Assembly (NCBI GenBank): GCA_013388835.1
Contig: JACAEL010000001.1
Span: 1 to 39,239 of the forward strand
Origin: Candidatus Thorarchaeota archaeon
Lineage (GTDB): Archaea; Asgardarchaeota; Thorarchaeia; Thorarchaeales; Thorarchaeaceae
Direction of reading: 5' to 3'
Length of the DNA stretch: 39,239 nucleotides
The notes beneath the pieces are model-generated. The model was not told the DNA's origin. It made no database searches and saw nothing but the letters and a program-made list of their open reading frames with translations. Below, one piece after another: positions 11,578-30,637 of the stretch (its first letter is position 1; every line of letters begins with the position of its first letter). The position numbers were made by a program, and so were the translations under genes.

Positions 11578-12237
11578 ATGGGCGAAAAGGTCCTTCAGAT
11601 TGCCACCTTGGGCCTCTACGCAAACGAGCGTGTGGACCAAGTGGTTCTGATGAAAGGAGCGGACAAGCTCGTACTGCTGTATACTGAGGCCAACAAGGAT
11701 GATGTAGTGTCGTTCAAAGAGAGACATGCCAAAGCGAAGCATCCGATAGACGCAGAGCTTGTTGACCCATGGGGGTATGAGAGCATCCTTGCGACCGTCC
11801 TAGACATCATCCTCAGACACAAGGAGTACACGGTACAGTTCAACATATCCTGCGGGACGATCGCCATGAGAGCAGCCTGTCACATGGCCGCGGTGCTCAT
11901 CGAGGCCCCTGTGTACTTCGTGGCGGAGACAGAGAGGGACGCGGGAAGACCCCTAGTCGAGGTTCAACCACTCAGTCTGTCCAAGCTGACTGCACCCAAG
12001 AGGACCATCCTGAGCAATCTGATCAGACTGGGAGGCCATGTTCAAAGCCAGAAGGAACTGGCGGACGTGGAGGGCGCCCATCCCTCATCGATATCGAAGC
12101 ACCTCAAGGAGCTGGAGAGCCAGAAGTACATACGGCGGAGCAGGGAGGGAGGCAAGAAGACCATTGAGATTACAGAACTTGGCAAGGTGATTCTCCGCCT
12201 GAAGGATGCCAGAAGGGACAGAGTCTGGGGAGGATGA
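11578..12237 (+). CDS. CARF domain-winged helix regulator, copy A (Csa3-like)
   Basis: A 219-residue protein with an N-terminal CARF-type Rossmann domain and a C-terminal winged helix, the layout of Csa3 and related CRISPR regulators. The CARF part shows LQIATLGLYANERV (strand 1 and loop), VDPWGYESILATVL, and the ligand-loop segment NISCGTIAMRAACH. The winged helix follows at about residue 140 (PKRTILSNLIRLGG, then a recognition helix in HPSSISKHLKELESQKYI). ATG 11578 is preferred because GGTGACC lies directly before it and the first CARF strand starts there; ATG 11548 is an alternative. The next gene starts 1 nt after the stop. The protein is paralogous to 28338-29015. It has no HEPN or other effector domain, so it is a regulator rather than a Csm6-like nuclease. 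It probably senses a cyclic oligonucleotide, but the ligand is unknown and no type III Cas10 cyclase is present. Confidence 0.8.
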   Translation: MGEKVLQIATLGLYANERVDQVVLMKGADKLVLLYTEANKDDVVSFKERHAKAKHPIDAELVDPWGYESILATVLDIILRHKEYTVQFNISCGTIAMRAACHMAAVLIEAPVYFVAETERDAGRPLVEVQPLSLSKLTAPKRTILSNLIRLGGHVQSQKELADVEGAHPSSISKHLKELESQKYIRRSREGGKKTIEITELGKVILRLKDARRDRVWGG

Positions 12238-12238
12238 C

Positions 12239-13858
12239 ATGAGCGCACCGTCCAGTAGCGAGCATCGCCTTGAAGTCGTCCAGACAATGTGGCAGAAGGC
12301 CGCGCTGAGACTGCTGGAACTCGGTCTGCGCCCGGATGACTGTCCAAGAGGCCTAGTGGTCACATCAGAGCATTCACTAGGTAAGGTGTATGGAGAGGTC
12401 TCACCGGACGGACAGCTATGCATCACCAAGGAGGCACTTGATGACTCCGCACTGTTCCATGGAATTGTGGCAAGGGAGTGCGCCAGATCAGCTCTGAGGA
12501 GTGACTCTCTGTGCGCAGAGTGCATCACTGATGTCGCAACCGAGTTTGCAGCCCAGCAGCTGTGCTCTGATGAGAGGGCTCGGTGGCGGAAGACATGGCA
12601 AGAGAGCAGCGATGACCGACGTGTGAATGGCGTCATCGTCTATAGTCCTGCAGCAGGCTACGAAGCACTCTACGATGTTGCTGGACCTGATGGACTCAAG
12701 AGCATCATACGGGACGTGTTCAATGCGTCTAGATATGGTGTCAGGCTCGAGTTCAACGACTATGCAGCATACTTTGAGACGCGGTTCAGGAGGTTCTCCG
12801 TCGGTCTCACTGCCGCAGAAGTCAGGATACTCGATGCGATGCTCAGAGACCCATCTGCCACATACCAGTTGGTAGCGCAACGAACGGGCTTCACACCACA
12901 GTGGGTGACTCAAAGGATTGCCTCACTCGAGAACAGACGCGTGTTGAGGAGCTGGGAGACCGTCCACTTCTCCAAGATTGGCATCAGGATGTTCCACCTG
13001 TTCATCGGCGAGGAGACCGGGGGACAGGACCCGTACAGATACTTCGTCAACTGCCCATTTGTCTATGCGATAAGGAGGGTGCTTACCGGAGACTGGCATA
13101 CGCTTGCAACCCTCAGTGTGCCAGACAACAATCAGAGCATACGTGCGGTCTACCATTCAGTCAAACAACTGGGCCAACGAGGGGTGCGTGTCGAGATCTA
13201 CGAGATAGTCTCGTCGGGTGCCGCGTTCTGCTTCGACTACTACCTGCCTGAGAGCGGGGCGTGGCAGGTGCCTTGGGACCTTGAGCGCGTCCAGCTGCCA
13301 AAGATACACAGAGAGAGGCTCTGGACAGCCTTTCCGCGTATCGACAGTCCCACGCCCAAGACCAGAGTGACACTTGACGAGCTGGACATGAGAGTAATCG
13401 AGGCCACAAGAAGGGGAGTCAACTCGGTGGCTTCTCTGAGGGGCGAACTGAGAGTCGGACAGACACGGGTCGCATCAAGCCTCAGGAAGCTGAGAGAGAA
13501 CGACATACTCTATACAGCCAGGGAGGCTCACAACGTTGGCCTGAACGAACACATCGTATTGACAGCAGACGAGCAGGAACTGGGAAGAGCAATTGCTGCA
13601 TGGTCACAGAGACTCCCAAGGACGATTCCGACATTCGACCTCGATGGTCGCTTGACTCTGCTCTGCAGTCTACCCACTGGAGGGAGCTATGGTCTCGCTT
13701 CATGCCTCGAGATGGTGGAAGGACAAGTGTCACTATCATTGCTCGGGTCGCCGCTACACGGGAAGTGGAGAATGCCGCTGGAGACATGGAATGCTGCTCG
13801 CCAAGCATGGGACTTTCCGGACAGGGAAGTCACAGAGTGGTTGGACTCTATGAGATAG
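12239..13858 (+). CDS. Tandem winged-helix protein of unknown function, copy A, paired with the CARF regulator
   Basis: A 539-residue protein in three parts. The N-terminal ~185-residue region is of unknown fold. A first winged helix at about 190-235 (TAAEVRILDAML with recognition helix QWVTQRIASLENRRVL) is followed by an alpha/beta domain. A second winged helix at about 378-425 (LDELDMRVIEATRRG with TRVASSLRKLRENDIL) is followed by a similar alpha/beta domain. The pattern resembles two Lrp/AsnC-like HTH-sensor units in one chain. It lies 1 nt after the CARF gene and is presumably co-translated with it. It is clearly paralogous to 28970-30637: both carry CPFVY..(x4)..V.TG near 271-283 and VPDNN soon after. 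I do not know a named family. A DNA-binding regulator of the CRISPR loci is the simplest reading. Confidence 0.7.
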   Translation: MSAPSSSEHRLEVVQTMWQKAALRLLELGLRPDDCPRGLVVTSEHSLGKVYGEVSPDGQLCITKEALDDSALFHGIVARECARSALRSDSLCAECITDVATEFAAQQLCSDERARWRKTWQESSDDRRVNGVIVYSPAAGYEALYDVAGPDGLKSIIRDVFNASRYGVRLEFNDYAAYFETRFRRFSVGLTAAEVRILDAMLRDPSATYQLVAQRTGFTPQWVTQRIASLENRRVLRSWETVHFSKIGIRMFHLFIGEETGGQDPYRYFVNCPFVYAIRRVLTGDWHTLATLSVPDNNQSIRAVYHSVKQLGQRGVRVEIYEIVSSGAAFCFDYYLPESGAWQVPWDLERVQLPKIHRERLWTAFPRIDSPTPKTRVTLDELDMRVIEATRRGVNSVASLRGELRVGQTRVASSLRKLRENDILYTAREAHNVGLNEHIVLTADEQELGRAIAAWSQRLPRTIPTFDLDGRLTLLCSLPTGGSYGLASCLEMVEGQVSLSLLGSPLHGKWRMPLETWNAARQAWDFPDREVTEWLDSMR

Positions 13859-14146: not shown

Positions 14147-15277
14147 CTGAGAGTCACGGAAGTAGAGGCCCACAACTTCAGAAGCTTTGAACAGATCAGA
14201 GTTGACTTGGACCCGTTGACCGTACTTGTGGGACAGAATGCTTCCGGCAAGAGCAATCTTCTTGACGTCTTGCGGTTTACCAGCGAGTCTCTTCGAAAAG
14301 GCCTTGACTCTGCAATCTCTCTGCGTAGAGGAATCAGTGCTATTCGAAGATGGTCGGCCAAGGGTCGTCCGTACGATGTGACTGTCAGGGTCATCCTAAA
14401 ATCGGATGAAGCAAGCGCATCATATTCATTCACGGTCGGAAGCAAAAGAAGGACAGAGTTCGAGGTCAAGAACGAGGCTTGTTCGATTACCCATAGAGGC
14501 CAAGACCTGCAATATGAAATCAGAAATGGCACATGGGTGGCCGCACCGGAAGACCTGAAGAAGATTCCATTAGCAAGAGCAGCTCTCGCGCTACCAATCG
14601 TGGCCGCCGTCAAGCCCTTTGGACTAGTCTATAATGCCCTCACAGGAATGAGGTTCTATACAATCTACCCAAACGTACTCAGAGAACCCCAGCCTCCGGG
14701 GGTACCATACCCACTTGAAGAACACGGCAGTAATCTTGCATCCGTCCTCAGAGAGATGCAGAGGACAGGAAACCAGTGGCTCCCGGACCTCAGAGCAGTC
14801 CTGAAGAGGATAGTTCCGGACATAGGCGACTTCGGTGTACGCCAGATTGGGGGGTACTTCGTCGTGATGCTCGTCCACGAGATGGACACGGCGAACAGAG
14901 AGAGGGCGTTCTTTGACCTCTCGCAGGAGTCTGATGGCACACTTAGGATTCTTGGCCTTCTGACTGCTCTGTATCAAGATCCACCGCCAACACTAATCTC
15001 AATCGAGGAACCGGAACTCACGGTCCATCCGGGTGTCATAGGGGTCCTTGCGGATGTACTCAAGGAAACTGCGAAACGGTCTCAAGTGCTCATCACCACA
15101 CACAGTCCGGACCTGATGGACTGCGTACCGGTCACAAGCATCCGAGTTGTGGAACGAGTCAAGGGAGTCACGAGAATCGGGCCTGTAAACAAGGAGCAAA
15201 TCGGCGCTGTGGAGGACCGTCTCTTCACGCCAGGAGATATACTGCGGCTAGAGGGGCTGCAGAGAGGGGAAGAATGA
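14147..15277 (+). CDS. SMC/ABC-like AAA ATPase of a two-gene defence-type pair
   Basis: An ATPase of the AAA_15/AAA_21 (RecF/OLD-like) group. The conserved N-terminal strand VTEVEAHNFRSFEQ is followed by Walker A GQNASGKSN, signature-like LSQESDGTLRI, Walker B LISIEEPEL and a switch His in TTHSPDL. Such ATPases act as sensors or motors in OLD, PARIS and other phage-defence systems. The start is odd: the conserved N terminus is open back to a stop at 14117-14119, but that stretch has no ATG, GTG or TTG. I mark CTG 14147 as the likeliest start (376 residues). The first usual codon, TTG 14207, would remove the first strand. The DUF4276 partner starts at once after the stop. Confidence 0.75.
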   Translation: MRVTEVEAHNFRSFEQIRVDLDPLTVLVGQNASGKSNLLDVLRFTSESLRKGLDSAISLRRGISAIRRWSAKGRPYDVTVRVILKSDEASASYSFTVGSKRRTEFEVKNEACSITHRGQDLQYEIRNGTWVAAPEDLKKIPLARAALALPIVAAVKPFGLVYNALTGMRFYTIYPNVLREPQPPGVPYPLEEHGSNLASVLREMQRTGNQWLPDLRAVLKRIVPDIGDFGVRQIGGYFVVMLVHEMDTANRERAFFDLSQESDGTLRILGLLTALYQDPPPTLISIEEPELTVHPGVIGVLADVLKETAKRSQVLITTHSPDLMDCVPVTSIRVVERVKGVTRIGPVNKEQIGAVEDRLFTPGDILRLEGLQRGEE

Positions 15278-15922
15278 GTGATATCGATTGTCCCAGTAGT
15301 CGAAGGCGACGGTGAAGTTGAAGCAGTACCTCTGCTGCTCAGACGTTTCTTGGAGCGTATGAACAGAGAAGACATAATTGTTGCCCGCGCCCTCAACGCA
15401 CACGGCAGGTCTAACATCACCAAGCCCGGTGGCTTTGAGCGCTTGGTCGAATATGCTCAGAGAAAGGATGGTGCTGCCGGCATCCTCGTACTCATTGATG
15501 CGGATTCCGACTGTCCCAAGGAACTTGTCACAGGTCTGTGTATACGTGCTAAGCAAAGTCACTTAGTATGTCCATTGGTTCTGATAGCTGCCAAGCCTGA
15601 GTACGAGGCTTGGTTTCTTGCAAGCATAGAAACGATTAGGGGAAGGACGCTTGCAGGCACACCGGGACTAGACAGTGAGACGTCGTTCGAAGGAGACCCT
15701 GAGCGCATTCGTGGAGCAAAAGAGATACTCGGTCAGCACATGGGAGTGGGCAGAACGTACAAAGAAACGCTCCACCAAGCGCCCATGACAGAGTACTTGG
15801 ACCTGAACCTCGCGATTCAGCGTTCTCGTTCCTTTAGAAGACTGGGCAATACTCTGAAACAGCTTCTACAGTTCATGGATGCTGGAGAGACTCGTGTGAC
15901 GCCCGATGTGTGCGCGTGCTGA
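15278..15922 (+). CDS. DUF4276 TOPRIM-like protein, partner of the ATPase
   Basis: A 214-residue DUF4276 protein, a TOPRIM-fold family often encoded beside AAA ATPases. TOPRIM acidic motifs are visible: VPVVEGDGEVEAVPLLLRR at the N terminus (catalytic Glu type), VLIDADSDCP near residues 71-80 (DxD), and the family's AAKPEYEAWFLAS near 105. GTG 15278 follows the ATPase TGA (15275-15277) with no gap, so the two are one translational unit. By analogy with OLD- and PARIS-type pairs, the ATPase would sense infection and the TOPRIM protein would act as a nuclease. That role is inferred. Overproduction toxicity is possible. Confidence 0.75.
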   Translation: MISIVPVVEGDGEVEAVPLLLRRFLERMNREDIIVARALNAHGRSNITKPGGFERLVEYAQRKDGAAGILVLIDADSDCPKELVTGLCIRAKQSHLVCPLVLIAAKPEYEAWFLASIETIRGRTLAGTPGLDSETSFEGDPERIRGAKEILGQHMGVGRTYKETLHQAPMTEYLDLNLAIQRSRSFRRLGNTLKQLLQFMDAGETRVTPDVCAC

Positions 15923-16468
15923 CAGTCGCGGTCCTTCTGGGTGCACAGTACTAACCGACCGCATCATGATGCATACACATGATATGTGACCGCTGCCACA
16001 AATGCAGCCAGAACTTCTGCCATAAACAGGTTAAGCTATCCGCATGGCCCTCTTAGACGTGTGTGTCATGGCTTCAATCCTGAATCCTAGTTGTGACATG
16101 AGGTGTCTGGAGAGATGTCCTTTGCTCCACCCAGACTCGTGACTCAGATAGAATCACAGCGCCTCTATCAAAACACTGAGGGGATTGACAACCATACCGA
16201 CTGTAGGATTCGACTCCACTTGGTGTGAGAAACATCCGAGTTGGTTCGATACAACTCTGCTGATATGCAGTCCTGTTGACCGGAGCTAGAGCCTCAGCTT
16301 TTCTGTACAAAGTGGAAGTGTCTTCAACGCAGGTTCTCGTGGGTATTCACAGATGCACACTCTCGCAGATGCACAACAGGAGGCTCATCCAGTGAGGGTC
16401 GGGCACTATGTCCATAAGGTAATGAGATGAGAACATGCCAATCACCGTATCTACTAGGAGTCTTGAGA
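15923..16468. other. 545-nt gap with no supported gene
   Basis: This lies between the DUF4276 gene and purB. Open frames here are short and look random, including a 78-codon minus-strand frame at 16074-16310. I find no convincing TATA box, tRNA or CRISPR unit. GAGTTG (16238-16243) and CAACTC make a small hairpin with an 8-nt loop, and GGATTCGACTCC near 16207 resembles a tRNA T-arm but has no other tRNA parts. The purB promoter must lie in its right half. Confidence 0.5.
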
Positions 16469-17836
16469 ATGCCCATCTGCCCGATTGACTACGGACGCTA
16501 CGGACACCGTGACATGGTATCAGTGTTTGAGGAGGAGCACAGGCACGAGCTCTGGCTGAGAGTGGAGGCTGCTGTTGCGAGGGTTCAGGCAGAGATGGGG
16601 CTCATCCCGCATGATGCAGCAGACGACATTGCTGCCACAGCGCACCCTGACAGAGTGACTCTCGAGCGGACACTGCAGATTGAGGCCAAGAACCGGCACG
16701 ATGTGACAGCTCTCTTCGAGGCCATAGCCGAGAAGTGCACGGGGCCCGGAGCAAGGTGGGTTCACTTTGGTCTCACAAGCAACGACGTCAAGGACACAGC
16801 GCTGGGGCTGCAGCTGAAAGCGGCCTTCGGTGTGCTTCTTCCACAGGTCGACCACCTAATGGATGTCCTTGCGGCGCGTGCCCGAGAGTCCGTCAATCTC
16901 ATTGCGGTTGGCAGGTCACACGGTCAGCAGGCAGTGCCCATAACCTACGGCATCCGGTTTTCAGTGTGGCTAGACGAGGTCAGGCGTCACAGGACACGGC
17001 TCACAGCAGCGATACACACGAATTCAGTAGGCAAGATTGCTGGGGCCACTGGCAGCCATGCCGCCTTAGGAGTCAAGGGGATTGAGCTTCAACGAAGGGT
17101 CCTTCAGAGTCTCGGCTTACAGGTGCCTGTGGCCACCACTCAGATCATCCAGCGCGACCGGCTTGCGGAAGCAGTGCTAGCCCTCGCCAATCTGGCTGCT
17201 TCGATTGACAAGATGGCCACGGACCTGAGGAGCCTCCAGAGGACGGAGATAGCGGAGACCTACGAGCCCTTTGCGGAGGACAAGCAGGTGGGCTCGTCTG
17301 CCATGCCTCACAAGCGCAACCCGGTCACGCTTGAGAAGATCTGTGGCCTCGCCCGAGTGGTGCGCTCCCATGCGGCCCCTGCCTTAGAAAACGTGGTCAG
17401 CTGGGAGGAGAGAGACATCTCTCACTCATCGACGGAACGTTTCATCATTCCGCAGTCATTCATCCTGACCGACTACATCGTGCGCGAGATGACCCGCGTC
17501 CTTGAGGGGCTCACAATCGATGAGGCTGCGGTGGCACGCAATCTGTCACTGTCCAAGGAGTCCATTCTCAGCGAATACGTGGTCACCACCCTGACACAGG
17601 CAGGTATGGAGCGACCCAAGGCGCATGAGACCCTGAGGAGACTTTCTGCTGCAGCAAGGACCAGCAACTCAAGCCTACTCTCGGTCATCGCACAGGACCC
17701 AGAGACTGCAAGACTCCTCGGGACTACTCGGCTGGACATTGAGGCGTACTATGAGTCAATAAGAGAGGTCTCAAGGGCAATCGTCGATGCCGCAACTCGT
17801 CGTGACCAGCAGTCCACAGCGACCGGCGGTGATTGA
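16469..17836 (+). CDS. purB: Adenylosuccinate lyase
   Basis: A 455-residue adenylosuccinate lyase of the fumarase/aspartase superfamily. It splits fumarate from SAICAR and from adenylosuccinate in purine synthesis. The family signature GSSAMPHKRNP lies near residues 276-286, and HFGLTSNDVKDTALG and GRSHGQQAVPITYG are the other two conserved active-site regions. I chose the ATG at 16469 (MPICPIDYGRYG), which matches the usual N terminus; the frame is open upstream to 16427. Length is normal. The gene is a housekeeping anchor between the two CRISPR loci and shows no sign of transfer. Confidence 0.95.
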   Translation: MPICPIDYGRYGHRDMVSVFEEEHRHELWLRVEAAVARVQAEMGLIPHDAADDIAATAHPDRVTLERTLQIEAKNRHDVTALFEAIAEKCTGPGARWVHFGLTSNDVKDTALGLQLKAAFGVLLPQVDHLMDVLAARARESVNLIAVGRSHGQQAVPITYGIRFSVWLDEVRRHRTRLTAAIHTNSVGKIAGATGSHAALGVKGIELQRRVLQSLGLQVPVATTQIIQRDRLAEAVLALANLAASIDKMATDLRSLQRTEIAETYEPFAEDKQVGSSAMPHKRNPVTLEKICGLARVVRSHAAPALENVVSWEERDISHSSTERFIIPQSFILTDYIVREMTRVLEGLTIDEAAVARNLSLSKESILSEYVVTTLTQAGMERPKAHETLRRLSAAARTSNSSLLSVIAQDPETARLLGTTRLDIEAYYESIREVSRAIVDAATRRDQQSTATGGD

Positions 17837-17861
17837 CCATCGGTCCGTGTGCTGTCGAAGG

Positions 17862-17981
17862 ATGCTGATGCACACAGAACTAGACGCGCTGTTGCAGCAA
17901 CTGATCGACGGCCCACACATTGTGACACTCGCGGTGCGACAGAATAATAACACCGTTGTCGCCAGTCTGGACGTGAAGTGA
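17862..17981 (+). CDS. Possible 39-residue small protein coupled to the next gene
   Basis: A short frame from ATG 17862 (or 17868) encodes a peptide with sensible composition: ELDALLQQLIDGPHIVTLAV then a polar NNNTVVASLDVK end. Its stop codon overlaps the ATG of the next gene in a TGATG arrangement, typical of coupled translation. No strong ribosome site precedes it and I recognise no family, so chance is a real alternative. Confidence 0.3.
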   Translation: MLMHTELDALLQQLIDGPHIVTLAVRQNNNTVVASLDVK

Positions 17982-18757
17982 TGGAAATGAAGAACATGTT
18001 GATCACACTGACACCTGCGGAGAGCAAGAGGCTCATAGCCAAAGGCATAATCGCCACAGTTGAGTTCAAAGAGGCCTTTGCTAACGGATATGTCTGCATA
18101 ACGCTTGGCACAACCACTTCATACATAGTGGAGGAGATTCTGGAGGACTACGACAAGACCAAGCACGTAGCTGGTGTGGTAGTACCCAGAGGGGTCTGGG
18201 TGACCAAGAAGGAGAGCAGACACTCCGATGCGATATTCTACAAGGGAGAGTACATGGAGGGAAAGAAGGTTGCTGACGTCCTGAGTGACCTTGGACCCGG
18301 GGACATGATAATCAAAGGAGCAAACGCACTTGATGCGGACATGGTCCCGCTTGTACTCTTGGCCAGCGATACCGCAGGCACAGTGGGCAGCTTCATCGGT
18401 GCGGTTGCAGCTAAGAACATCATACTGGTGATGGCTGTCGGACTTGAGAAGTGCATCCCCACAAGATACGGAGAGATGAAGAGCGCCTTTGGTATGCATG
18501 ACTGGGACTACGCGGTTGGTACTCCCGTCGGGGTCATGCCGGTACATGTCGGTGAGGTCTTCACTGAGACGGATGCGCTTGCTGTGCTCTTCAACGTTGA
18601 CTCAGTCGCCATAGCAGCAGGCGGGGTGAACGGAGCCGAGGGGTCCGTCACTCTATACGTCGTTGGCGAGGACGAGGACATAGACGCGGCTCACGAGTTT
18701 CTGACCACTCAGATCAAGGGTGAAGAACCGTTCCCGACCATCGAGGACCTTAAGTGA
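17981..18757 (+). CDS. Hypothetical protein, unrecognised alpha/beta family
   Basis: A 258-residue soluble protein with no signal peptide or clear membrane helix. It reads as an alpha/beta protein with glycine-rich turns: GTTTSYIVEEIL near 45, GVVVPRGVWVTKKES near 69, LGPGDMIIKGANALDADMV near 106-124, TAGTVGSFIGAVAAKNIILVMAVG near 132-155, and AAGGVNGAEGSV near 209-220. The paired 'GDMIIKGANAL' and 'GSFIGAVAAKN' segments could form a nucleotide or metabolite pocket, but I cannot assign a function. ATG 17981 is used; GTG 17978 directly before it and ATG 17987 are alternatives. The coding pattern is firm throughout. It lies 144 nt after purB and before a glycosyltransferase. Confidence 0.75.
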   Translation: MEMKNMLITLTPAESKRLIAKGIIATVEFKEAFANGYVCITLGTTTSYIVEEILEDYDKTKHVAGVVVPRGVWVTKKESRHSDAIFYKGEYMEGKKVADVLSDLGPGDMIIKGANALDADMVPLVLLASDTAGTVGSFIGAVAAKNIILVMAVGLEKCIPTRYGEMKSAFGMHDWDYAVGTPVGVMPVHVGEVFTETDALAVLFNVDSVAIAAGGVNGAEGSVTLYVVGEDEDIDAAHEFLTTQIKGEEPFPTIEDLK

Positions 18758-18908
18758 TGCAGTCTCTTGCATCCAAATCGAAAACCCATCAAGGCGGAGG
18801 TTGTCCGGCACTCAACTGAGCACAGGGAGTGGCGCCTGTGTCATCTGTCAGGAGTGGCGATATGCCCCTGTACGAGCCTGTCCGACTAACAATGAAGGGC
18901 TGGAAGAA

Positions 18909-20012: not shown

Positions 20013-20066
20013 TAGCAAGTGCTCAGCGGCTCGCAGAAACGTGAGAAGTGACTGTAGAAAGAGACA

Positions 20067-20510
20067 CTACTCTGTTTCGACACTCTCGCGAAGATACTTT
20101 TCAATCGCTCTGACAAAGGACTCCACACAGGCAATGGCTGGACCTATAGAGGCATGGACAAGTCCCAGATCAACCTCTAGATACCCATGAACCAGAATGT
20201 TGCGCATTCCGACGAGGTGGACCAACTCTGAGGCAAGTGGATCCGATATGACAGACTGTTTCTGTAGCGTTAAGACGGCCTCCCGGTACTCGCCTGGAAC
20301 CCCCCAACGTTGTTGAGAGATGATGTGACCAGCAATGTCGATCGCAGCCTGCGCAATCACCTGAAGCGAACGTTCAACAGTCCGCGTTGCCATGTCGTCA
20401 TTCCTGAATGATTCGTAGGAGATGGCCTGAAAGCGGCGTAGGACTCGAGCTTCACCAAGCATCCTCTCAAGCCTTCTTCTCACCACAGTAACGTCAACGG
20501 TCAAGGTCAC
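20067..20510 (-). CDS. hepT: HepT-like toxin (DUF86)
   Basis: A 147-residue helical HEPN-type toxin. The R-N-x-x-V-H-x-Y active site is seen as RNILVHGYLEVDL near residue 105. In characterised HepT-MntA pairs HepT is an RNase, and the Tyr of this motif is AMPylated by MntA to neutralise it. The GTG start overlaps the end of the mntA gene by 4 nt. It is convergent with the glycosyltransferase gene, with a 54-nt gap that shows nothing clear. Confidence 0.85.
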   Translation of the reverse strand: MTLTVDVTVVRRRLERMLGEARVLRRFQAISYESFRNDDMATRTVERSLQVIAQAAIDIAGHIISQQRWGVPGEYREAVLTLQKQSVISDPLASELVHLVGMRNILVHGYLEVDLGLVHASIGPAIACVESFVRAIEKYLRESVETE

Positions 20511-20923: not shown

Positions 20924-20966
20924 CAGATCACCGGACAGAACGACTCCCAGCGTGATTCTCATAGCT

Positions 20967-23418: not shown

Positions 23419-23419
23419 C

Positions 23420-24814
23420 TCAACGCACGGGCCACTTCGGACGGACCTCTACACCCGCACGCTCGATGAGCCTTGAAGCGTGTTCGTTTGCACGCCGAAT
23501 GAGGCTTGTCTCGTCAACTGTGAGAAGGCGTCGCTCCTCCATCAGTAGGCGACCGTTCACCATGACGGTCTCAACGTCTCTCCCAGACCCAGCATAGACG
23601 AGGTTTGAAACAGGGTTGAGGATGGGGTTGAGACCGACATGATCCTGAGAGACCACAATGATGTCAGCACACATCCCGGGTGCGATGCTGCCAGTCATGC
23701 CAGCAAGCCCCATGGCGCGAGCACCTCCAAGCGTCGCCATCTCCAGCGCCTGTTCAGCTGTCACAACAAGAGGATTGTGCTGTACAGGCTTATGAACGAG
23801 TGCGCAGAGACGCATCTCCCTGAGGAGGTCGTATGTGTTATTGCTCGGCCCACCATCGCAACCCAGCGAGACGGGGACTCCAGCCTCTATCATCCGGGGC
23901 ACCTTTGCGAACCCCGAGGCGAGCTTGGCATTACTTGACGGGCAGTGTGAGATGTTGGTCTGGGTCTGTGCCAACACCCTGAGCTCCTCATCATCGAAGT
24001 GTATGCCATGGGCGAACACCATGTCGGAGCCAAGCAGGCCCATTTCCGACGCGAAACTGGTCAGGTCCCGGTAGCCGTTCGCCTTCACATACCGCACATC
24101 ATCGACCACTTCGCCCAGATGCATGGTCATCCGTGTACCCCTGTCCCGTGTGAGCTGCACGACCCTTCTGAACAGCCCCGGCGTGACAGCACCCAGAGAC
24201 CGCAGACCATACCAGACCTGCAACCTGCCCTCGGCTCGCCCGTGCCACTTGTGGAACATCTCATCGGTCTCTCGCAGGCATTCCTCGGCCTCCTCGACCA
24301 TCCCGGGGTACATTATGTCACGACTATCAGCATAGCCCGTCGAGTCCATCACTATTTTGGACAGGGCCGCACGCATACCGACCTGCTTGACCGCCTCAGC
24401 TATACCGTCGAAGCCATAGCGTGAGTGTGTCATGCACTCGATGAACGACGTCGTACCGGTCTTGATCATCTCGGCCATGCAGAGCTCAGCGGACACTCTG
24501 CCATCAGCTCTGGTGAAGTTGCCCTGCAACACCCAGACGTACTTCTTCAGCCAGTCCACCAGAGACACATCATCCGCGCACCCCCGAATCAGGGCCTGGG
24601 CGAGGTGAACGTGCGTGTCAATCAGGCCGGGCATGACAATTCGTCCTGAGGCGTCGATGACCTTGTCGGCGGCCCGATGCTTCATCTCGTCTGTCTTGCT
24701 CACCTCGACCACTCGTGACCCCTCGACGTACACTGCTCCGTCAGTGACTATCTCGCGACGCTCATTCATTGTGATGAGGTAGCCATGCTTGATCAAGACC
24801 GAGTTCTGTGACAT
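23420..24814 (-). CDS. Amidohydrolase, cytosine/adenosine-deaminase-like (TRZ/ATZ family)
   Basis: A 464-residue metal-dependent amidohydrolase of the TRZ/ATZ group, which includes S-adenosylhomocysteine/5'-methylthioadenosine deaminases. Metal ligands are visible as the HxH of DTHVHLAQ near residue 68, MHLGEV, AHGIHF, and the Asp of LGCDGGPSNN. The N-terminal LIKHGYLITMNERREI and C-terminal VMVNGRLLMEERRLL strands form the composite beta domain. The likely reaction is hydrolytic deamination of an adenosine- or cytosine-type base. The exact substrate cannot be read from the sequence. It is convergent with the ABC permease gene (1-nt gap). Confidence 0.88.
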   Translation of the reverse strand: MSQNSVLIKHGYLITMNERREIVTDGAVYVEGSRVVEVSKTDEMKHRAADKVIDASGRIVMPGLIDTHVHLAQALIRGCADDVSLVDWLKKYVWVLQGNFTRADGRVSAELCMAEMIKTGTTSFIECMTHSRYGFDGIAEAVKQVGMRAALSKIVMDSTGYADSRDIMYPGMVEEAEECLRETDEMFHKWHGRAEGRLQVWYGLRSLGAVTPGLFRRVVQLTRDRGTRMTMHLGEVVDDVRYVKANGYRDLTSFASEMGLLGSDMVFAHGIHFDDEELRVLAQTQTNISHCPSSNAKLASGFAKVPRMIEAGVPVSLGCDGGPSNNTYDLLREMRLCALVHKPVQHNPLVVTAEQALEMATLGGARAMGLAGMTGSIAPGMCADIIVVSQDHVGLNPILNPVSNLVYAGSGRDVETVMVNGRLLMEERRLLTVDETSLIRRANEHASRLIERAGVEVRPKWPVR

Positions 24815-24880
24815 CTCGCTGACCAGACGGAGATGTCGGTTTCCGCCTTATCTAGTCTTGTCATCCCGGCCGAAGAGGCA

Positions 24881-24925
24881 GAAGAAGCAGAAAAGAAGAA
24901 GACACCTGACCACGGATGGCCAGGT
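24881..24925 (-). terminator. Hairpin plus T-rich tract ending the small-protein transcript
   Basis: Read on the minus strand, ACCTGGCC and GGTCAGGT pair with a 6-nt loop. One pair is G-T on this strand only, which supports minus-strand RNA. A T/C-rich tract, GTCTTCTTCTTTTC, follows. It sits 18 nt after the stop of the second small ORF. Confidence 0.5.
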
Positions 24926-24942
24926 CTCGTGGATGATGGAGA

Positions 24943-25023
24943 TTACCTCCTGAAGTACTGATAGGCGATAGCCCTTGTAGAGATGAGGGTGCGCTTGTGG
25001 GTGCGCTGGTTCTCGCTGGTCAT
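24943..25023 (-). CDS. 26-residue basic small protein, second of a pair
   Basis: ATG at 25023 to TAA gives a 26-residue, strongly basic peptide (MTSENQRTHKRT... ending AIAYQYFRR). It starts 5 nt after the stop of the 34-residue frame, on the same likely transcript. The two peptides share STRA-x-x-Y-x-Y, which is the main evidence that both are real and related. A terminator-like hairpin follows. I recognise no family; it is not ribosomal L41e or L39e. Confidence 0.5.
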   Translation of the reverse strand: MTSENQRTHKRTLISTRAIAYQYFRR

Positions 25024-25028
25024 TGTGT

Positions 25029-25133
25029 TCACCTCACGACAGTGGAGTATGCGTAGCCAAGAGCACGGGTCGACTGGGCCTTGCGCGTCCAGTTCTTCAC
25101 AGGTTCAGTCCGGTTGTTGGTTGCTTGAGCCAT
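25029..25133 (-). CDS. 34-residue basic small protein, first of a pair
   Basis: ATG at 25133 to TGA encodes 34 residues (MAQATNNRTEPVKNW... then STRALGYAYSTVVR). It lies 28 nt downstream of a clear TATA element, so it sits at the start of a transcript rather than inside a gene shadow. The downstream 26-residue peptide repeats its STRA-x-x-Y-x-Y motif. Net charge is strongly positive. Possible roles are RNA or ribosome binding, or a secreted/toxic peptide; none can be shown here. Confidence 0.5.
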   Translation of the reverse strand: MAQATNNRTEPVKNWTRKAQSTRALGYAYSTVVR

Positions 25134-25160
25134 GATTGTTCACAAGTGACACAGCGCAGA

Positions 25161-25174
25161 CTTGGTATATAATG
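25161..25174 (-). promoter_or_regulatory. TATA promoter of the small-protein pair
   Basis: CATTATATACCAAG on the minus strand contains a strong archaeal TATA element. The ATG of the 34-residue frame lies 28 nt beyond its end, so transcription should start very close to the start codon. Confidence 0.55.
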
Positions 25175-25435
25175 CGAAGCCACGTCCTGAGGTCACCCAA
25201 ACAGGTCACGAAGAAAGGTCACATCATGTTACCAACGGTCGTTCAGCGGTGACGAGAACAACGGACAACTCGACACCGGGAGCCTTGTAGAACCCGACCA
25301 CAGGCACAGTCGCGAGACACCTTGCCAGATCTGAGGAGGCTGGAGAGCGTTCGAGAGCGCAAGAGAGCTGGTTGTCCACCAATGCTGGCTTCACTTACCA
25401 GCGCATGTGTTTCAGCATGAAGAGTCTTGACTGGG

Positions 25436-25446
25436 AAACTTTAAAG
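25436..25446 (+). promoter_or_regulatory. Possible TATA box for the ferredoxin-AOR operon
   Basis: AAACTTTAAAG lies about 55 nt before the ferredoxin ATG, in a 367-nt gap (25134-25500) where I see no other gene or RNA. Confidence 0.35.
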
Positions 25447-25500
25447 AACTCTCTTCGTCAACGTCAAGGACCACTCACCGTGAGGACCGTGAACAGGACC

Positions 25501-25989
25501 ATGAGTCTGCTGGTCATCGACCTCGAGAGATGCACTGGCTGCCAGAACTGCGAACTGGCGTGCTCAGTCAGAAACACGCGTACTTTCAACCCTGCGAGGT
25601 CGCGGATTCACATACTCAAGGATGAAGTGAAGAGCATTGTAGTCCCGATGGTATGTCTTCAGTGCGACGAGCCGCTGTGTCGTGATGCATGTCCCTCATC
25701 AGCAGTCGTGATGAACTCGGCGGGTGTACTCACTGTCGACCATGAGAGTTGTATAGGCTGCCAGAACTGCGTGACCGCCTGCATCTACGGTGGAGTGACA
25801 ATGGACCCTGTGACACGGAAGGCAGTCAAGTGTGACCTGTGCGGTGGAGAACCCGCATGCGTGAAGGCCTGTGAGTACAAGGCGATAACCATTGCAAAGA
25901 ACAGAAGGAAGGGGTTGAAGGACAGACAGACCAGCTTTGACCGACTGTACTCGTTCTACGGGCTGGGTCTGAGGGAGGCAAGACGATGA
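25501..25989 (+). CDS. Polyferredoxin, electron partner of the aldehyde oxidoreductase
   Basis: A 162-residue ferredoxin of the HycB/CooF/DMSO-reductase-B type with sixteen cysteines in four cluster motifs: CTGCQNCELAC, CLQCDEPLCRDAC, CIGCQNCVTAC and CDLCGGEPACVKAC. It can carry four [4Fe-4S] clusters. I chose ATG 25501, directly before the first cluster strand (SLLVIDLERC); the frame is open further upstream but that part is not ferredoxin-like. The stop overlaps the AOR ATG by 4 nt, so it probably shuttles electrons to or from that enzyme. Confidence 0.93.
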   Translation: MSLLVIDLERCTGCQNCELACSVRNTRTFNPARSRIHILKDEVKSIVVPMVCLQCDEPLCRDACPSSAVVMNSAGVLTVDHESCIGCQNCVTACIYGGVTMDPVTRKAVKCDLCGGEPACVKACEYKAITIAKNRRKGLKDRQTSFDRLYSFYGLGLREARR

Positions 25990-27938
25990 CATTCCCGTAC
26001 AAGGGCTATGCCGGCAGCTATCTTGAGGTGGACCTCAACAAGGGAAAGGTGCACAAGCACGAGATGGAGAAGGAGTGGGCCCTGTTCTACATGGGCGGCA
26101 CGGGTGTTGCTGCAAGGATACTCTGGGACAGGACAGGGCCAAAGACGGAACCGCTGTCACCCGAGAACGTCATGGTGGTGGGCACGGGGCCTCTGACGGG
26201 AGTGCTGTTCTCACCATCAGGAAGGTGTATGTTCGCCTCGAAGGGCCCTCTGACCGGTATCTGGGCCGAGAGTCATGTGGGCGGGTTCTTTGGTCCCGAG
26301 ATGAAGTATGCGGGGTTCGACCTCGTTCTGCTTCACGGGCGCTCTCCAAGACCAGTCTACCTCTTCTTGCGCGACGGGGATGCTGAGCTGCGGGACGCGT
26401 CGTACCTGTGGGGAAAGGAGACCGATGTCACGACCGAGATGATTCGAGAAGAACACAAGGACCCGGAGATTGAGACTGCAGTGATAGGGCCAGCGGGAGA
26501 GAATCAGGTCTTGTACGCCTCCATCACTGTTGACTTCTACAGGGCCGCGGGCAGAACAGGGATGGGAGCGGTCCTCGGGTCGAAGAATGTGAAGGCGATT
26601 GCAGCGAGTGGCTCCCTGCCCCTTGAGGCTCATGACATGGACCGCTATATCGAGGCGAATGGTCAGGAGATGGCCAGACTCAGAGACCCCCTGTGGACTG
26701 AGTCGTTGACCTCGCTCAGAAAGTACGGTACAACGGGCCTCGTCACGATGATAAACGAGATAGGACGCCTGCCCACCAAGAATCACTGGACCGGCTTCTA
26801 TGAGCACGCAGAGGACATTGGCCCGGAGGTCATATCAAAGCGGTACAAGACGGCACAGGAGGCCTGTCTTGGCTGTGCCATCGGCTGTAAGTACATCTAC
26901 AGGGTTGGCGAGGGAAAGTTTGCTGGAGGACCTGCGGGCGGACCCGAGTACGAGACCATAATGGCGTTCGGCTCCAACTGCATGAACAACAACATCGAGT
27001 CCATCTTCTACCTGGGCACGCGCTGTGATCTGCTCGGCATGGACACAATATCATGCGGCAAGACGATTGGCTTCGCAATGGAACTCTGGGAGAAGGGCAT
27101 CCTCACCGCGGAGAAGACCGGAGGGCTGGACCTGTCATGGGGTAATGTCGACACGATGGTCAGACTCGTGGAGATGATTGCGAAGCGTGATGGTATTGGA
27201 GACCTCCTGTCACGAGGGACAAGAAAGGCGGCTGAGGCCTTAGGCGGGGACGCATGGATGTATGCGGTCCACTGCAAGGGGCTCGAGGCATCAGGTCAGG
27301 ACCCGAGAGCACACCAGTCGGTCGGTCTCACCTACGCCACTAACGTCAGGGGAGCGGACCATCTGAGGAGCCTGTCCAGTCTGGAGGAACTCGGTTACCC
27401 GGAGGTCATAGTCGGCAGGTTCGGTGAGGAGAAGTTCAAGGCAATAAGCGAGATAACCTCGCCAGTCCACAAGGGAGAGGTGATCAAAGACATTGAGGAC
27501 CTCTACGCTCTCGTGGACTCTGCAGTGATATGCAAGTACGGCACGATGTGGCCCCCTGTCTTCTACTTTGACACGTTCGCCAACGTGATACCACCCCTGA
27601 CCGGGATGACCGAGTGGGCCGACATCAAGTTCGTCCGTCAGGTCGCCGAGAGGATATCGCACCTGCGTAGAGCGTACAATCATCGACTTGGTGTGACAAG
27701 AAAGGAGGAGACCCTGCCACGACGACTCCTACTGGAACCCATGCCCACTGGTCCGGCCAAAGGAGGACTCCCGAACCTGGACTACATGCTTGATGAGTAC
27801 TATGACTTCAGAGGTTGCGACAGACGCACCGGGTTGCCGTTCGAAGAGAAGCTTCACAGTCTTGGTCTGGACTTTGTCAGGGAGGACCTGAAGACGAGAG
27901 GAGGCTTGCCGAGCTATCCGACCACTTCAAAGCCATAG
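25986..27938 (+). CDS. aor: Aldehyde:ferredoxin oxidoreductase family protein (tungsten enzyme)
   Basis: A 650-residue member of the tungstopterin AOR family, which oxidises aldehydes to acids with ferredoxin as acceptor. The N-terminal domain shows GYAGSYLEVDLNKGK and the pterin-binding GRTGMGAVLGSKNVKAI near 195-211. The [4Fe-4S] site has CLGCAIGC (C-x2-C-x3-C, near 294) with a fourth Cys in AVICKYG near 516. GPEYETIMAFGSNC and DPRAHQSVGLTYATNVRGADH are the other conserved regions. Length is typical. It is co-translated with the polyferredoxin. The subfamily (AOR, FOR, GOR or other) and substrate cannot be set without a tree. Confidence 0.93.
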   Translation: MTFPYKGYAGSYLEVDLNKGKVHKHEMEKEWALFYMGGTGVAARILWDRTGPKTEPLSPENVMVVGTGPLTGVLFSPSGRCMFASKGPLTGIWAESHVGGFFGPEMKYAGFDLVLLHGRSPRPVYLFLRDGDAELRDASYLWGKETDVTTEMIREEHKDPEIETAVIGPAGENQVLYASITVDFYRAAGRTGMGAVLGSKNVKAIAASGSLPLEAHDMDRYIEANGQEMARLRDPLWTESLTSLRKYGTTGLVTMINEIGRLPTKNHWTGFYEHAEDIGPEVISKRYKTAQEACLGCAIGCKYIYRVGEGKFAGGPAGGPEYETIMAFGSNCMNNNIESIFYLGTRCDLLGMDTISCGKTIGFAMELWEKGILTAEKTGGLDLSWGNVDTMVRLVEMIAKRDGIGDLLSRGTRKAAEALGGDAWMYAVHCKGLEASGQDPRAHQSVGLTYATNVRGADHLRSLSSLEELGYPEVIVGRFGEEKFKAISEITSPVHKGEVIKDIEDLYALVDSAVICKYGTMWPPVFYFDTFANVIPPLTGMTEWADIKFVRQVAERISHLRRAYNHRLGVTRKEETLPRRLLLEPMPTGPAKGGLPNLDYMLDEYYDFRGCDRRTGLPFEEKLHSLGLDFVREDLKTRGGLPSYPTTSKP

Positions 27939-28290: not shown

Positions 28291-28308
28291 TTCGGGTTCA
28301 AACCCGAA
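28291..28308. promoter_or_regulatory. Perfect 18-nt palindrome before the second CARF gene
   Basis: TTCGGGTTCAAACCCGAA has two perfect 8-nt arms with a 2-nt centre. It lies 29 nt before the preferred GTG start of the CARF-wHTH gene and between that gene and the divergent RNA candidate. Symmetry and position suit an operator for a dimeric winged-helix protein. The centre also resembles a tRNA T-arm, but no tRNA surrounds it. Confidence 0.45.
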
Positions 28309-28337
28309 ACGGGATGAGAGACGCAGGGGAACAACAA

Positions 28338-29015
28338 GTGAGAAGAATCGTCCATGTCGCAGGTCTCGGCTTCAACGAGCAGGGACGCATTGCATATGTC
28401 ATCCAGAATCGAGGCGGCCAGAAGCTGGTGCTGGTGCACTCGAAAGAGAACCTTGACGATGCAATACGTGTTCAAGAAGACCTTCAGAAACACGGTGCCT
28501 TTGAGGTCGAGCTGATATGCGTGGACCCTTGGGACTACCACGATGTGCTGCAGAAGGTGATTGAGGTCGCAATCAGGCATCACAAGGATGACTTGAGGTT
28601 CAACCCGTCACTGGGGACAAGGGTGATGACGTCCGCCCTGTTTGTCGCTGCGAACTTCACCGGTTCACCTGTCCACCTGGTGAAGGAGGAGAAAGGAATA
28701 GCAACGGACGTCATTGACATCTATCCAGTCCAACGACAAACACTGAGCGCAATCAAGAAGCACATACTGGAGACGTTGAAGGCGCATGAGTCTACCGGCA
28801 TTGAATCCATCATGAAGCTCGCACGCTTGGTCAAGCGTAGCAACGCGAGCGTCTCACATCATGTCGATGAGCTGAGCATGTGGGGATATGTTGAAACGAA
28901 GCGGGAAGACAGGAAGGTGCTGGTGAAGATCACCGGACTGGGCGCCGCAGTCCTCAGGATGGCAGAGCTATGGAAGAAGAGAGAGAAGACGAAGAGAAAC
29001 AGGAGGAAGGGCTGA
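28338..29015 (+). CDS. CARF domain-winged helix regulator, copy B (Csa3-like)
   Basis: A 225-residue paralogue of 11578-12237. The N-terminal CARF-type domain shows RRIVHVAGLGFNEQGRI, VDPWDYHDVLQKVIEVAIRH, and NPSLGTRVMTSALFVAAN in place of copy A's NISCGTIAMRAACHMAAV. The C-terminal winged helix includes ESIMKLARLVKRSNASVSHHVDELSMWGYVETKRE. GTG 28338 is preferred since AGGGG lies about 10 nt upstream and the first strand starts there; ATG 28314 would add eight residues. The next gene starts inside its last 46 nt, so the pair is coupled. It sits between metabolism genes and the type I-B operon and may regulate that operon or its array. The ligand is unknown. Confidence 0.8.
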   Translation: MRRIVHVAGLGFNEQGRIAYVIQNRGGQKLVLVHSKENLDDAIRVQEDLQKHGAFEVELICVDPWDYHDVLQKVIEVAIRHHKDDLRFNPSLGTRVMTSALFVAANFTGSPVHLVKEEKGIATDVIDIYPVQRQTLSAIKKHILETLKAHESTGIESIMKLARLVKRSNASVSHHVDELSMWGYVETKREDRKVLVKITGLGAAVLRMAELWKKREKTKRNRRKG

Positions 29016-30637
29016 CAGCCTCCAGAGACGCACTTGTTGGTCTGTGGAGAGACAGCGTGCTTCGGTGCGCGAATCGGTTCGGTCTGAGTCCATCGCTGGT
29101 AGACAGTCCCACGACAGTGAGTTCATCCGCATCTGTGGGTTGGCCTGAGTCCTTTGACCAGATGGTGAGTCTTGATGGCGGCACAGTCGAGATTCCCAAC
29201 ATCACTGGCACCACAGCGGCACTTCTCAGGGCATTGATTGCTCGTGAGAGCCTGCGTCTTCTTCTCCCGAACGATGTGTTGCACGAACGTGCCATTGCGG
29301 ACCTGGCATCCGAATATGGACGACAGCAGCTGGAGGAAAGGGGACTTGCACTGTGGAGTGAGGAGTGGCAGCGTCGAAGCCCAAGAACGGCCATTCGAGC
29401 CGGCGGTGTATACGATCCCGTTCTGTTCTTCACAACGCTTGCGAATCTCACTGACAAGAAGGGACTGAACCTCCTTGTGAGCAGGGTCCTCGCGATGGAG
29501 CGGACGAGCATCAGGGCAGGCATTGATGAGTGGGGCTGGTATCTCCATCGCTTCCTGCGCGAGTACAACCATCCACTCAGCGAGATTGAAGTCAGGGTCT
29601 TGGAGGAACTCCTCAACGAACCGGACCTGACACGAGAAGCCCTCTCCGACCGACTCTGTGTCAGTGCAGACTGGATAGGGAAGACCATCCAGGGGCTGAG
29701 AGCGCGAGGACAGTTGAAAGAGTTTGTGCATCTGTCTTTGCCAGCTCTGGCGATAAGGACAGTTCAGATGCTCCTGCTGCCGGGAGAGAACTCACCGATA
29801 GACTGTGAGAGGTTGATCGAACACTGTCCGTTCGTCTACTCGTCTCATCAGGTGGTCACAGGACGAGGCGGCCTCTACATCACGTTCTGTGTGCCTGACA
29901 ACAACAGGAACATGAGCTACCTGCACAGGATGACGCAAGCGGCGCAGCGAACAGGCCACGAGGTCATAGAGTTCGAACGCTGCCGCTCCGCGCGTTATCA
30001 CAACCTCGACTGCTACTCGTGCCGAACGGGCAACTGGGAGATAGACTGGCCAACTGTACAGATGGACCTAGAGTACTTGTTGTCAAGCACCGGAGGGCAC
30101 GACGCGCTCCCTCCGGAACCGCCAGCCAGAGTAGCGCAGTACGACGGGCTGGATGTTCAGATACTCGTTCAGATACAGAAAGGTGTGCACAAGGTCAATG
30201 ACCTGCAGAGGATAGTCAAGCGGCGAACCGCACTCGTCAGCGAACGTGTCAACCATCTACGAAGTCTGGGCGTGGTCAAACACTTCTGGGAACTCCACTA
30301 CGTTGGCCTCATCAACGACGTGCTCCTGATTGCCCGAGATGCGGAGCCAAGCAGGGCCTTGCGGGCGGCTGCACCGAGGCTCCCCAAGTGTGTACTTGAC
30401 ACCGACACGAAGAATGGTACCCTGGTAAGAGCACAGCTCCCCGTCGGCGGCACACTGCAGTTTGTCAGGGCCTTTGAACATCTTGACCGGAGGCCGTATG
30501 TCTACGTGATTGGCCCCAGACTGTACGGTCAATGGCTGCTGTCAGACTTCATCGCAGACTGGAACTCGTATGCCGGGACATGGAGTCCTCATGAACAGGG
30601 TATTGACAACTGGCTCGAGATACTGGAGCAGTATTGA
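28970..30637 (+). CDS. Tandem winged-helix protein of unknown function, copy B, paired with the CARF regulator
   Basis: A 555-residue paralogue of 12239-13858 with the same order: an N-terminal domain of unknown fold (about 1-200), winged helix 1 (about 203-250, LSEIEVRVLEELLNEPDLT with DWIGKTIQGLRARGQL), an alpha/beta domain, winged helix 2 (about 390-436, LDVQILVQIQKGVHKVNDL with ALVSERVNHLRSLGVV) and a final alpha/beta domain. Shared landmarks are HCPFVYSSHQVVTG and CVPDNN. Copy B has an acidic N-terminal extension (MEEEREDEEKQEEG) because its ATG lies within the CARF gene; a later start is possible. The two copies have diverged well beyond recent duplication. Confidence 0.7.
   Translation: MEEEREDEEKQEEGLTASRDALVGLWRDSVLRCANRFGLSPSLVDSPTTVSSSASVGWPESFDQMVSLDGGTVEIPNITGTTAALLRALIARESLRLLLPNDVLHERAIADLASEYGRQQLEERGLALWSEEWQRRSPRTAIRAGGVYDPVLFFTTLANLTDKKGLNLLVSRVLAMERTSIRAGIDEWGWYLHRFLREYNHPLSEIEVRVLEELLNEPDLTREALSDRLCVSADWIGKTIQGLRARGQLKEFVHLSLPALAIRTVQMLLLPGENSPIDCERLIEHCPFVYSSHQVVTGRGGLYITFCVPDNNRNMSYLHRMTQAAQRTGHEVIEFERCRSARYHNLDCYSCRTGNWEIDWPTVQMDLEYLLSSTGGHDALPPEPPARVAQYDGLDVQILVQIQKGVHKVNDLQRIVKRRTALVSERVNHLRSLGVVKHFWELHYVGLINDVLLIARDAEPSRALRAAAPRLPKCVLDTDTKNGTLVRAQLPVGGTLQFVRAFEHLDRRPYVYVIGPRLYGQWLLSDFIADWNSYAGTWSPHEQGIDNWLEILEQY

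Follow-up and report, generated by a model that had tools for sequence, protein, structure and literature searches.

A co-inherited pair of a CARF-winged-helix protein and a tandem-Lrp protein in Asgard archaea, linked in part to CRISPR-Cas loci

Known regulators and the gene pairs of the window

The closest described relatives of the genes considered here are the Csa3 regulators, in which a CARF domain is followed by a MarR-like winged helix-turn-helix (wHTH) domain. For Csa3a, two papers report unspecific binding of putative promoters in vitro, independent of cyclic tetra-adenylate (cA4; PMC8699464), and specific promoter binding that cA4 leaves unchanged (PMC8844856). The same papers give the cA4-binding motifs of Csa3 as h-G-F-N/D (motif 1) and G-h-R (motif 2), and PMC8844856 describes some CARF proteins as ring nucleases and Csa3Sso as lacking demonstrable ring nuclease activity. 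CARF-wHTH proteins, and CARF genes without a CRISPR link, were described by Makarova in 2014 (PMC4012209, whose available sections do not contain 'Lrp'), and a type I-D review lists the mode of action and the sensed signal of the I-D regulator as open. A 39,239-nucleotide stretch of Asgard DNA (the window), which is the whole of contig 1 in a 3.0-Mb, 125-contig genome, was found to encode two pairs of a CARF-wHTH protein and a much longer protein that carries two Lrp-type units. These pairs belong to a real, co-inherited two-protein system with a new partner architecture, and the system is linked to CRISPR in part.

Both CARF proteins of the window resemble Csa3 in their domain order and in their placement at cas operons, and CARF 2 also keeps GFNE and SLGTR. 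However, both fall under the curated cut-off of the NCBIfam Csa3 model (TIGR01884; 44.5 and 40.9 bits against 60.2, with E 1.1e-11 for CARF 1), and each has a dedicated tandem-Lrp partner that has no counterpart in the available sections of the Csa3 literature (PMC8844856, PMC8699464). They also resemble the HFX_2341-like CARF family (PF19810; cut-off 30 bits), for which CARF 2 scores over the cut-off (39.5 bits, E 8.6e-10) and CARF 1 just under it (28.2 bits), and they come with the long partner gene, which may set them apart from that family. Like the Lrp/AsnC regulators PH0061 (2dbb) and LrpC (2cfx), each half of the long protein consists of a wHTH and a RAM-type domain, whereas the single wHTH-RAM chain of about 150 residues that marks Lrp/AsnC proteins is replaced by two fused units behind a helical N-terminal domain, in a protein mostly of 465-600 residues. 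A tandem fusion of two Lrp-like units is also seen in the siroheme decarboxylase NirDL. Unlike that enzyme, which has conserved catalytic histidines and is not known to have a helical N-terminal domain, the long family has no conserved histidine. In the literature covered, which left aside subscription papers and preprints and included several papers in part, no account of the CARF/tandem-Lrp pair was found: an Lrp review (PMC2995911) contains none of 'fused', 'two HTH' or 'CRISPR', one Asgard defence paper (PMC11291487) mentions neither CARF nor Csa3, and PMC12988326 does not mention CARF.

Pairing, shared ancestry and architecture

A sequence-only reading of the window had described two diverged copies of the pair, and this was borne out. 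Identity is 30% between the two CARF proteins (E 2e-31) and, well above chance level, 26% across 534 residues between the long proteins (E 2e-54). The open reading frames (ORFs) and the 1-nucleotide gap or overlap between partners were confirmed, and the motifs that it had named (VDPW-x-Y and N-x-S-x-GT in the CARF proteins, CPFVY and VPDNN in the long proteins) are present in both copies. A scan of the window's own genome found only these two long proteins and two CARF-wHTH proteins, forming two pairs; no third CARF-wHTH protein was found there, and four weaker matches cover the wHTH only.

Below, G-codes denote genomes (the window's own is G000), L-codes fetched loci, C contigs, and f1 the 47-genome Asgard family that includes the window's genome. 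In a scan of a named GTDB collection, a search that finds close relatives only, the single match to the window long protein (37%) was in a Thorarchaeota record, so f1 is taken as presumably Thorarchaeota-related. Matches to the long protein (E 1e-5) were found in 56 of 227 Asgard genomes, and 89 long-family ORFs were present in the DNA fetched around long and CARF matches. A CARF gene lay within 1 kb of 34 of the 55 long ORFs in f1, with the CARF gene of L108 counted as complete when starts are ignored, and of 2 of the 34 outside it; ten of the CARF-less f1 ORFs sit at most 1 kb from a contig end. Counted from the other partner, 35 of 39 strong CARF matches (E 1.4e-35 or better; 37 in f1, 2 in another family) had a long gene within 1 kb, the other four being at contig ends (G195, G200 and a cut gene in G182) or without a long gene (G205:C76). 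Among 17 further loci with weaker CARF matches (four in f1), one has a long gene a few genes off (L126) and the rest have none. The partnership is asymmetric: the CARF protein goes with the long protein, but the long protein is often found without CARF, so that the partner once called obligate is obligate only from CARF to long protein. Homologues mostly without CARF or far from cas genes, a pattern named beforehand as speaking against the proposal, are seen for the long family as a whole and not for the groups of the two window copies. No long-protein homologues were found in phage records, and none was confirmed in viral contigs among 339 pattern matches, a weak negative because the two patterns came from just two sequences and one pattern was of low complexity.

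The 34 complete pairs comprise group 1 (11 pairs), clade 2 (9), clade 3 (12) and another family (2). Group 1, which includes long protein 1, is the remainder of f1 outside clades 2 and 3, and the trees do not show it as one clade; L055 is assigned to it on the basis of its long protein's position in the tree, its neighborhood and its leader, and not on that of the CARF tree. Trees of both partners, proposed earlier as a test of co-evolution, gave correlated patristic distances (Mantel r 0.813, against a maximum of 0.261 in 5000 permutations). Most supported splits are shared: the long tree contains 10 of the 11 found for CARF, and the CARF tree 13 of the 19 found for the long protein. Each tree also gives clades 2 and 3 with 99-100 support, and pairs of two groups occur within one genome (e.g. 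G000, G181, G187, G188, G194, G210 and G211). Long protein 2 clusters with L107/L108/L109 (support 99). Some correlation is expected from vertical descent alone; the stronger point is that two clades appear in both trees while single genomes hold two groups, which indicates that the partners were duplicated together. By these trees, the partners share a phylogeny and are co-inherited.

A profile of 59 relatives of the long protein (A2) matched 2dbb over positions 186-322 (6.1e-16), a span that covers wHTH and RAM, and 2cfx over positions 376-497 (2.5e-9). Aligned with hhalign, units 1 and 2 matched each other (98%, E 1.5e-13), showing that the halves are mutually homologous, and the N-terminal part matched neither unit. 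A profile of three sequences alone still recovered 2dbb (1.9e-6). HTH_AsnC-type domains were detected in 34 of the 59 members at E 0.01 (best 1.9e-14; long protein 1 itself, at 2.2e-4, is below the cut-off), and no Pfam RAM model was among the matches listed for members, which covered 25 of 34 families. Low-confidence AlphaFold2 models (two window-protein jobs and one fetched relative; mean pLDDT 45.7 and 49.9) agree in secondary structure with a double-Lrp architecture. When the model with pLDDT 49.9 was searched against the PDB, the best 43 of 50 matches were Lrp/AsnC proteins or related siroheme decarboxylases, at TM-scores of about 0.2 by query length, which is weak support. Because Lrp regulators were matched twice and the halves match each other, the long protein is by profile a fusion of two Lrp/AsnC-type units that follow a helical N-terminal domain, and a role as regulator is supported by its predicted fold. 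The two winged helices and double-headed protein proposed earlier thus held up, and the fold unrelated to DNA binding that would have spoken against them was not seen.

The N-terminal CARF and C-terminal wHTH domains of the window CARF proteins were recognized through PF19810, PF22662 and MarR/HVO_A0114 matches, some below cut-off (CARF 2 against PF22662 Csa3_N, 3.8e-4, is one), and the CARF part of the family profile matched 8bao, a DUF1887 family protein (1.6e-5), and 7bdv, Can2 (1.7e-4). The loop reads NISCGTIAM in CARF 1 and NPSLGTRVM in CARF 2. At the sites of the Csa3 cA4 motifs CARF 2 has LGFNE and SLGTR, with T at the hydrophobic place, retaining most of the motif residues, and CARF 1 has LGLYA and SCGTI; judged by the Csa3 structures, CARF 2 appears the better cA4 candidate. 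Of the 20 pairs that make up group 1 and clade 2, 18 have an intact N-x-S-x-GT loop, as do both other-family pairs and all 12 CRISPR-linked pairs; the loop is intact in none of the 12 clade 3 pairs, where the loss is a single evolutionary event, not twelve.

Genomic surroundings, upstream DNA sites and a cyclase

As the sequence-only reading had stated, pair 1 adjoins the I-D operon, downstream of its Csa1, and pair 2 the I-B operon, upstream of its Cas6. The features of the window are listed in Table 1.

Table 1. Features of the window, in order along the contig
Feature	Position	Strand	Details
Type I-D operon	201..11227	+	cas1, cas2, cas4, cas10d, 210-aa ORF, csc2, csc1, cas3', cas6, csa1
Conserved leader element	11380..11414	+	core ACCANGGCCANTCNGG; upstream of CARF 1
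CARF-wHTH protein 1 (group 1)	11548..12237	+	229 aa; alternative start 11578 gives 219 aa
Long protein 1	12206..13858	+	550 aa; alternative start ATG 12239 gives 539 aa and a 1-nt gap to CARF 1
Long protein 1, parts	residues		helical N-terminal domain ~1-197; Lrp-type units ~198-345 and ~386-515
AAA_21 ATPase and DUF4276 gene pair	14207-15922		after long protein 1
Chromosomal block	16427-27938		PurB, ABC transporter, amidohydrolase, ferredoxin, presumed AOR; between the two pairs
Dyad	28291..28308	none	TTCGGGTTCAAACCCGAA; directly before CARF 2
CARF-wHTH protein 2 (clade 2)	28314..29015	+	233 aa; alternative start 28338 gives 225 aa
Long protein 2	28970..30637	+	555 aa; 46-nt overlap with CARF 2; architecture as long protein 1
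Type I-B operon	31033..38709	+	cas6, cas8b, cas7 (Cst2), cas5, cas3, cas4, cas1
I-B CRISPR array, first two repeats	39084..39183	+	array runs on to contig end

Twelve of the 34 complete pairs lie beside I-D, I-B, III-B, Csa1 or TIGR02221-like genes, and a thirteenth (G004) is near a Cas6-like ORF. For TIGR02221, a family of CARF effectors, the three genes scanned reach 41-70 bits, short of the cut-off of 76, and the others were assigned by similarity to these. Six of the 11 group 1 pairs end a run of I-D genes, one is with Csa1 only and four are without cas genes. In clade 2, which includes long protein 2, the neighbor is the I-B operon in the window, a III-B operon with a GGDD Cas10 in G188 and G181, from which the pair is directly divergent, and a divergent TIGR02221-like gene in G194 and G187 (in G183, outside the 34, such a gene is beside the pair); 4 of the 9 pairs are unlinked. 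Where the CARF gene comes first, the two genes overlap or adjoin, with gaps from -46 to +27 nucleotides apart from a single one of 184. No clade 3 pair (0 of 12) is near cas genes, and in this clade the gene order is reversed, with gaps of 237-558 nucleotides; in the two other-family pairs (G003, G004) the genes are on opposite strands. One 32-kb contig of G187 carries an I-D operon with a group 1 pair, an I-B operon and a III-B operon. Since so many pairs have no cas genes nearby, the module is not a CRISPR-only system, and the earlier idea of a conserved CRISPR control module did not survive in that form.

Several other arrangements were observed. Three I-D loci of f1 (L133:7979-13679, L134:2032-7689 and L143:6322-12047) are of a second kind and start with a CARF-less long protein (490-506 residues), a ~480-residue protein and cas10d; an association of the long family with I-D operons seems to have arisen on two occasions. 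The ~480-residue protein, without a Pfam match in the two of three members that were scanned, is related to neither the long protein nor CARF. In G181 (L095:6849-12284) a Csa1 gene that is the sole I-D gene there lies between two long genes, and contigs L053 and L098 of G182 fit the same order. At seven loci (L091:5280-6224, L046, L048, L052, L092, L110, L111) related ~314-residue genes come after a clade-3-type CARF gene; the single member scanned (L091) is a GNAT acetyltransferase, and this arrangement suggests a new non-CRISPR role. The chromosomal block of the window, in which the gene at 25986-27938 is named AOR from its sequence, flanks long or CARF genes, whole or in part, without a cas operon at L033, L044, L093, L094 and L095, and may be a site where cas operons come and go. 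The AAA_21/DUF4276 gene pair is presumably of a kind met in defence islands. The 210-residue ORF between cas10d and csc2 (4974-5606) has no NCBIfam match but is related to ORFs of further Asgard I-D loci, and might encode a small subunit in its own right. A HepT-like RNase gene adjoining a 116-residue ORF (20067-20600) is possibly a HepT toxin-antitoxin pair.

Two DNA elements were found upstream of the pairs, one in each group of the window copies. DNA like ACCANGGCCANTCNGG (with no more than one of the 10 core bases differing) lies 85-246 nucleotides before the CARF ORF in all 10 group 1 pairs with enough upstream DNA to be testable (L035 was left out). It is also present in L053 and before the CARF-less long gene of L034, more weakly in L043 and the clade 3 locus L050, and absent from clade 2 (0 of 9). 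An exact 19-nucleotide pattern had 11 matches in the 47 genomes, 10 of them at group 1 loci (eight complete pairs, G184 and G182), although the pattern was derived from these same loci and at one mismatch a reversed control also matches; within the window, matches to the 10-mer at one mismatch are no fewer than chance predicts (4 against 3.0 expected). As a conserved sequence the element is firm. It would possibly, even likely, form an RNA stem-loop: own arms paired more stably than shuffled arms (summed energy -151.5 against -112.4, sd 8.6, 12 loci) and arm swapping gave p 2.5e-4 (14 loci), but singly only 4 of 12 loci reached p 0.05, with 0.09 for the window, and a z of -2.5 was also obtained in one of the four shifted controls. 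RNAalifold on a MAFFT alignment, which failed to align the 5' arms, gave four pairs and no compensatory pair, which argues against RNA, and Rfam gave no match. Two other identities were rejected. As CRISPR-repeat-like RNA, the element reached p <0.05 against shuffled I-D repeats in 3 of 21 comparisons (the rest 0.23-0.97); as a small ORF, it shows third-position wobble, but stops follow soon after the motif (window, L037, L039) and in the window the frame has no start.

At 6 of 10 clade 2 loci (the window and L100, L101, L105, L106 and L108, from G193, G194 C99, G217, G218 and G183) a dyad, TTCGG-N8-CCGAA, lies about 7-50 nucleotides upstream of the annotated CARF start, or, in L105, just inside an over-long ORF. 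What was found first was an 8-bp-arm palindrome before CARF 2, with a frequency of 0.0075 in shuffles, which was then relaxed to the dyad. There were no other distinct sites of this form in 158 loci and none in group 1, and the window dyad is the single exact site in its genome (reversed control, 3); with one mismatch allowed, the count in the window is at chance level. The dyad is probably an operator of the pair itself, through which clade 2 would regulate its own genes; no operator shared by pairs and cas promoters was found. A second, longer palindrome (CGTGAAC...GTTCACG) is present 177 and 206 nucleotides before related clade 2 CARF genes (L100 upstream of 7216; L101 upstream of 10302).

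The sequence-only reading had noted that no type III cyclase was present and had left the ligand source open. The first statement is true of the contig and not of the genome: on another contig, G000:C68:4769-6622 encodes a Cmr2/Cas10 with YAGGDD, in a III-B operon (cmr1-6 named by position and similarity) that resembles those of L102/L103 and has a TIGR02221-like protein at its head. With this GGDD Cas10 and two relatives whose clade 2 pair is divergent from a III-B operon, the question of the source is partly answered. At E 1e-6, 7 of the 47 f1 genomes have a Cmr2 match, which passes the cut-off in 6 of them; Cas1 is found in 11 of the 47. Among the 27 f1 genomes with a strong CARF match, 17 gave no match to Cas1; two of these (G207, G211) carry I-D genes on short contigs, so a missing Cas1 match does not always mean an absence of cas genes.

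A proposed switch and its alternatives

Taken as a whole, the data are best read as a two-protein transcription switch of this Asgard family whose CRISPR-linked copies relay a III-B signal, a reading that we consider probable, though not strongly so. The small protein would sense a ligand through its CARF domain and carries one wHTH; the two wHTH-RAM units of the long protein would give specificity for a DNA site, to which the CARF protein would add the signal. In group 1 and clade 2 the partners would be translated from overlapping or abutting genes and may act jointly at a promoter, and clade 2 would probably control its own operon through the dyad. The pairs appear assigned to different loci, group 1 mainly to I-D and clade 2 to I-B, III-B or CARF-effector-like genes or to none, and clade 3, its ligand loop lost, would no longer be tied to CRISPR. 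For the window's genome, the III-B Cas10 on the other contig is the probable source of the signal. A cyclic-oligoadenylate signal made by III-B could then plausibly reach type I genes through the CRISPR-linked copies: when III-B senses target RNA, the I-B and perhaps the I-D genes would be retuned, the simplest route for I-B being read-through that starts at the pair and runs on to cas6. In a bolder and less likely reading, a dedicated tandem-Lrp protein would be the part missing from the Csa3a studies and would lend a CARF sensor both promoter specificity and ligand dependence; given the dyad in clade 2 and the conserved, perhaps structured leader in group 1, the type III signal would be passed to I-B and I-D genes by sensor and DNA-specificity factor together.

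Several observations weigh against this switch. Most pairs are not near cas genes, including all of clade 3, 4 of 11 in group 1 and 4 of 9 in clade 2, some of them on short contigs. Pairs with an intact loop occur in G186, G204, G208 and G210, genomes 88-92% complete without Cas1, Csc2, Cmr2 or Csm1 matches, and there no type III system that was detected could supply the ligand. The III-B locus of the window's genome is on a separate contig with no pair beside it. CARF 1 has SCGTI where the Csa3 motif is G-x-R and thus may not bind cA4. The dyad is missing at four clade 2 loci (L102, L103, L107, L109), among them both that are linked to III-B, and as its genome holds no second exact copy there is none at the cas6, cas1, leader or III-B promoters. 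The group 1 element likewise sits before CARF, and its other matches in the window have a mismatch and are in or at the edges of cas genes.

Some of these points would also fit a general Asgard tandem-Lrp regulator with non-immune duties, which CARF joined early and whose adjacency to cas genes mostly reflects a shared chromosomal hot spot. CARF-less long relatives are found in many families (32 of the 34 ORFs outside f1), the chromosomal block flanks a long gene, with or without CARF, in the absence of a cas operon in G186, G216 and G181 and partly in others, and the frequent lack of a Cas1 match and the location of the dyad at the pair itself rather than at cas promoters point the same way. 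A hot spot fits less well with the 12 of 20 group 1 and clade 2 pairs that touch CRISPR-type genes in several different surroundings, or with a loop that 18 of these 20 pairs retain and no clade 3 pair has; it is a possible explanation, but not one that we favor. The upstream position of both DNA elements, together with the ring nucleases known among CARF proteins (PMC8844856), would also suit a CARF protein that removes or buffers cyclic oligoadenylate beside a long protein that independently autoregulates the operon. This is improbable given the C-terminal wHTH of the CARF protein, the co-divergence of the partners and the lack of demonstrable activity in Csa3Sso (same source). Finally, the long protein could be an enzyme like NirDL, as its profile matches 4ch7 (4.2e-7), PF22451 is found in 15 of the 59 members and the fold search with the weak model returned 4czc over 353 columns; since the Lrp regulator 2dbb scores better and histidine is never the commonest residue among columns more than 60% conserved in 77 relatives, an enzyme is very improbable.

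The two-protein switch is of interest because a CARF-wHTH protein with a nearly invariant, co-inherited and predicted DNA-binding partner is a concrete candidate regulator, in a genome that also holds a III-B cyclase. The family offers a natural series (intact loop with CRISPR; intact loop with no cas genes found; loop lost with no cas genes nearby) that separates ligand sensing from promoter choice, and the dyad is a ready DNA target. If the proposal is true, the pair would be a two-part switch through which one CRISPR system governs a second.

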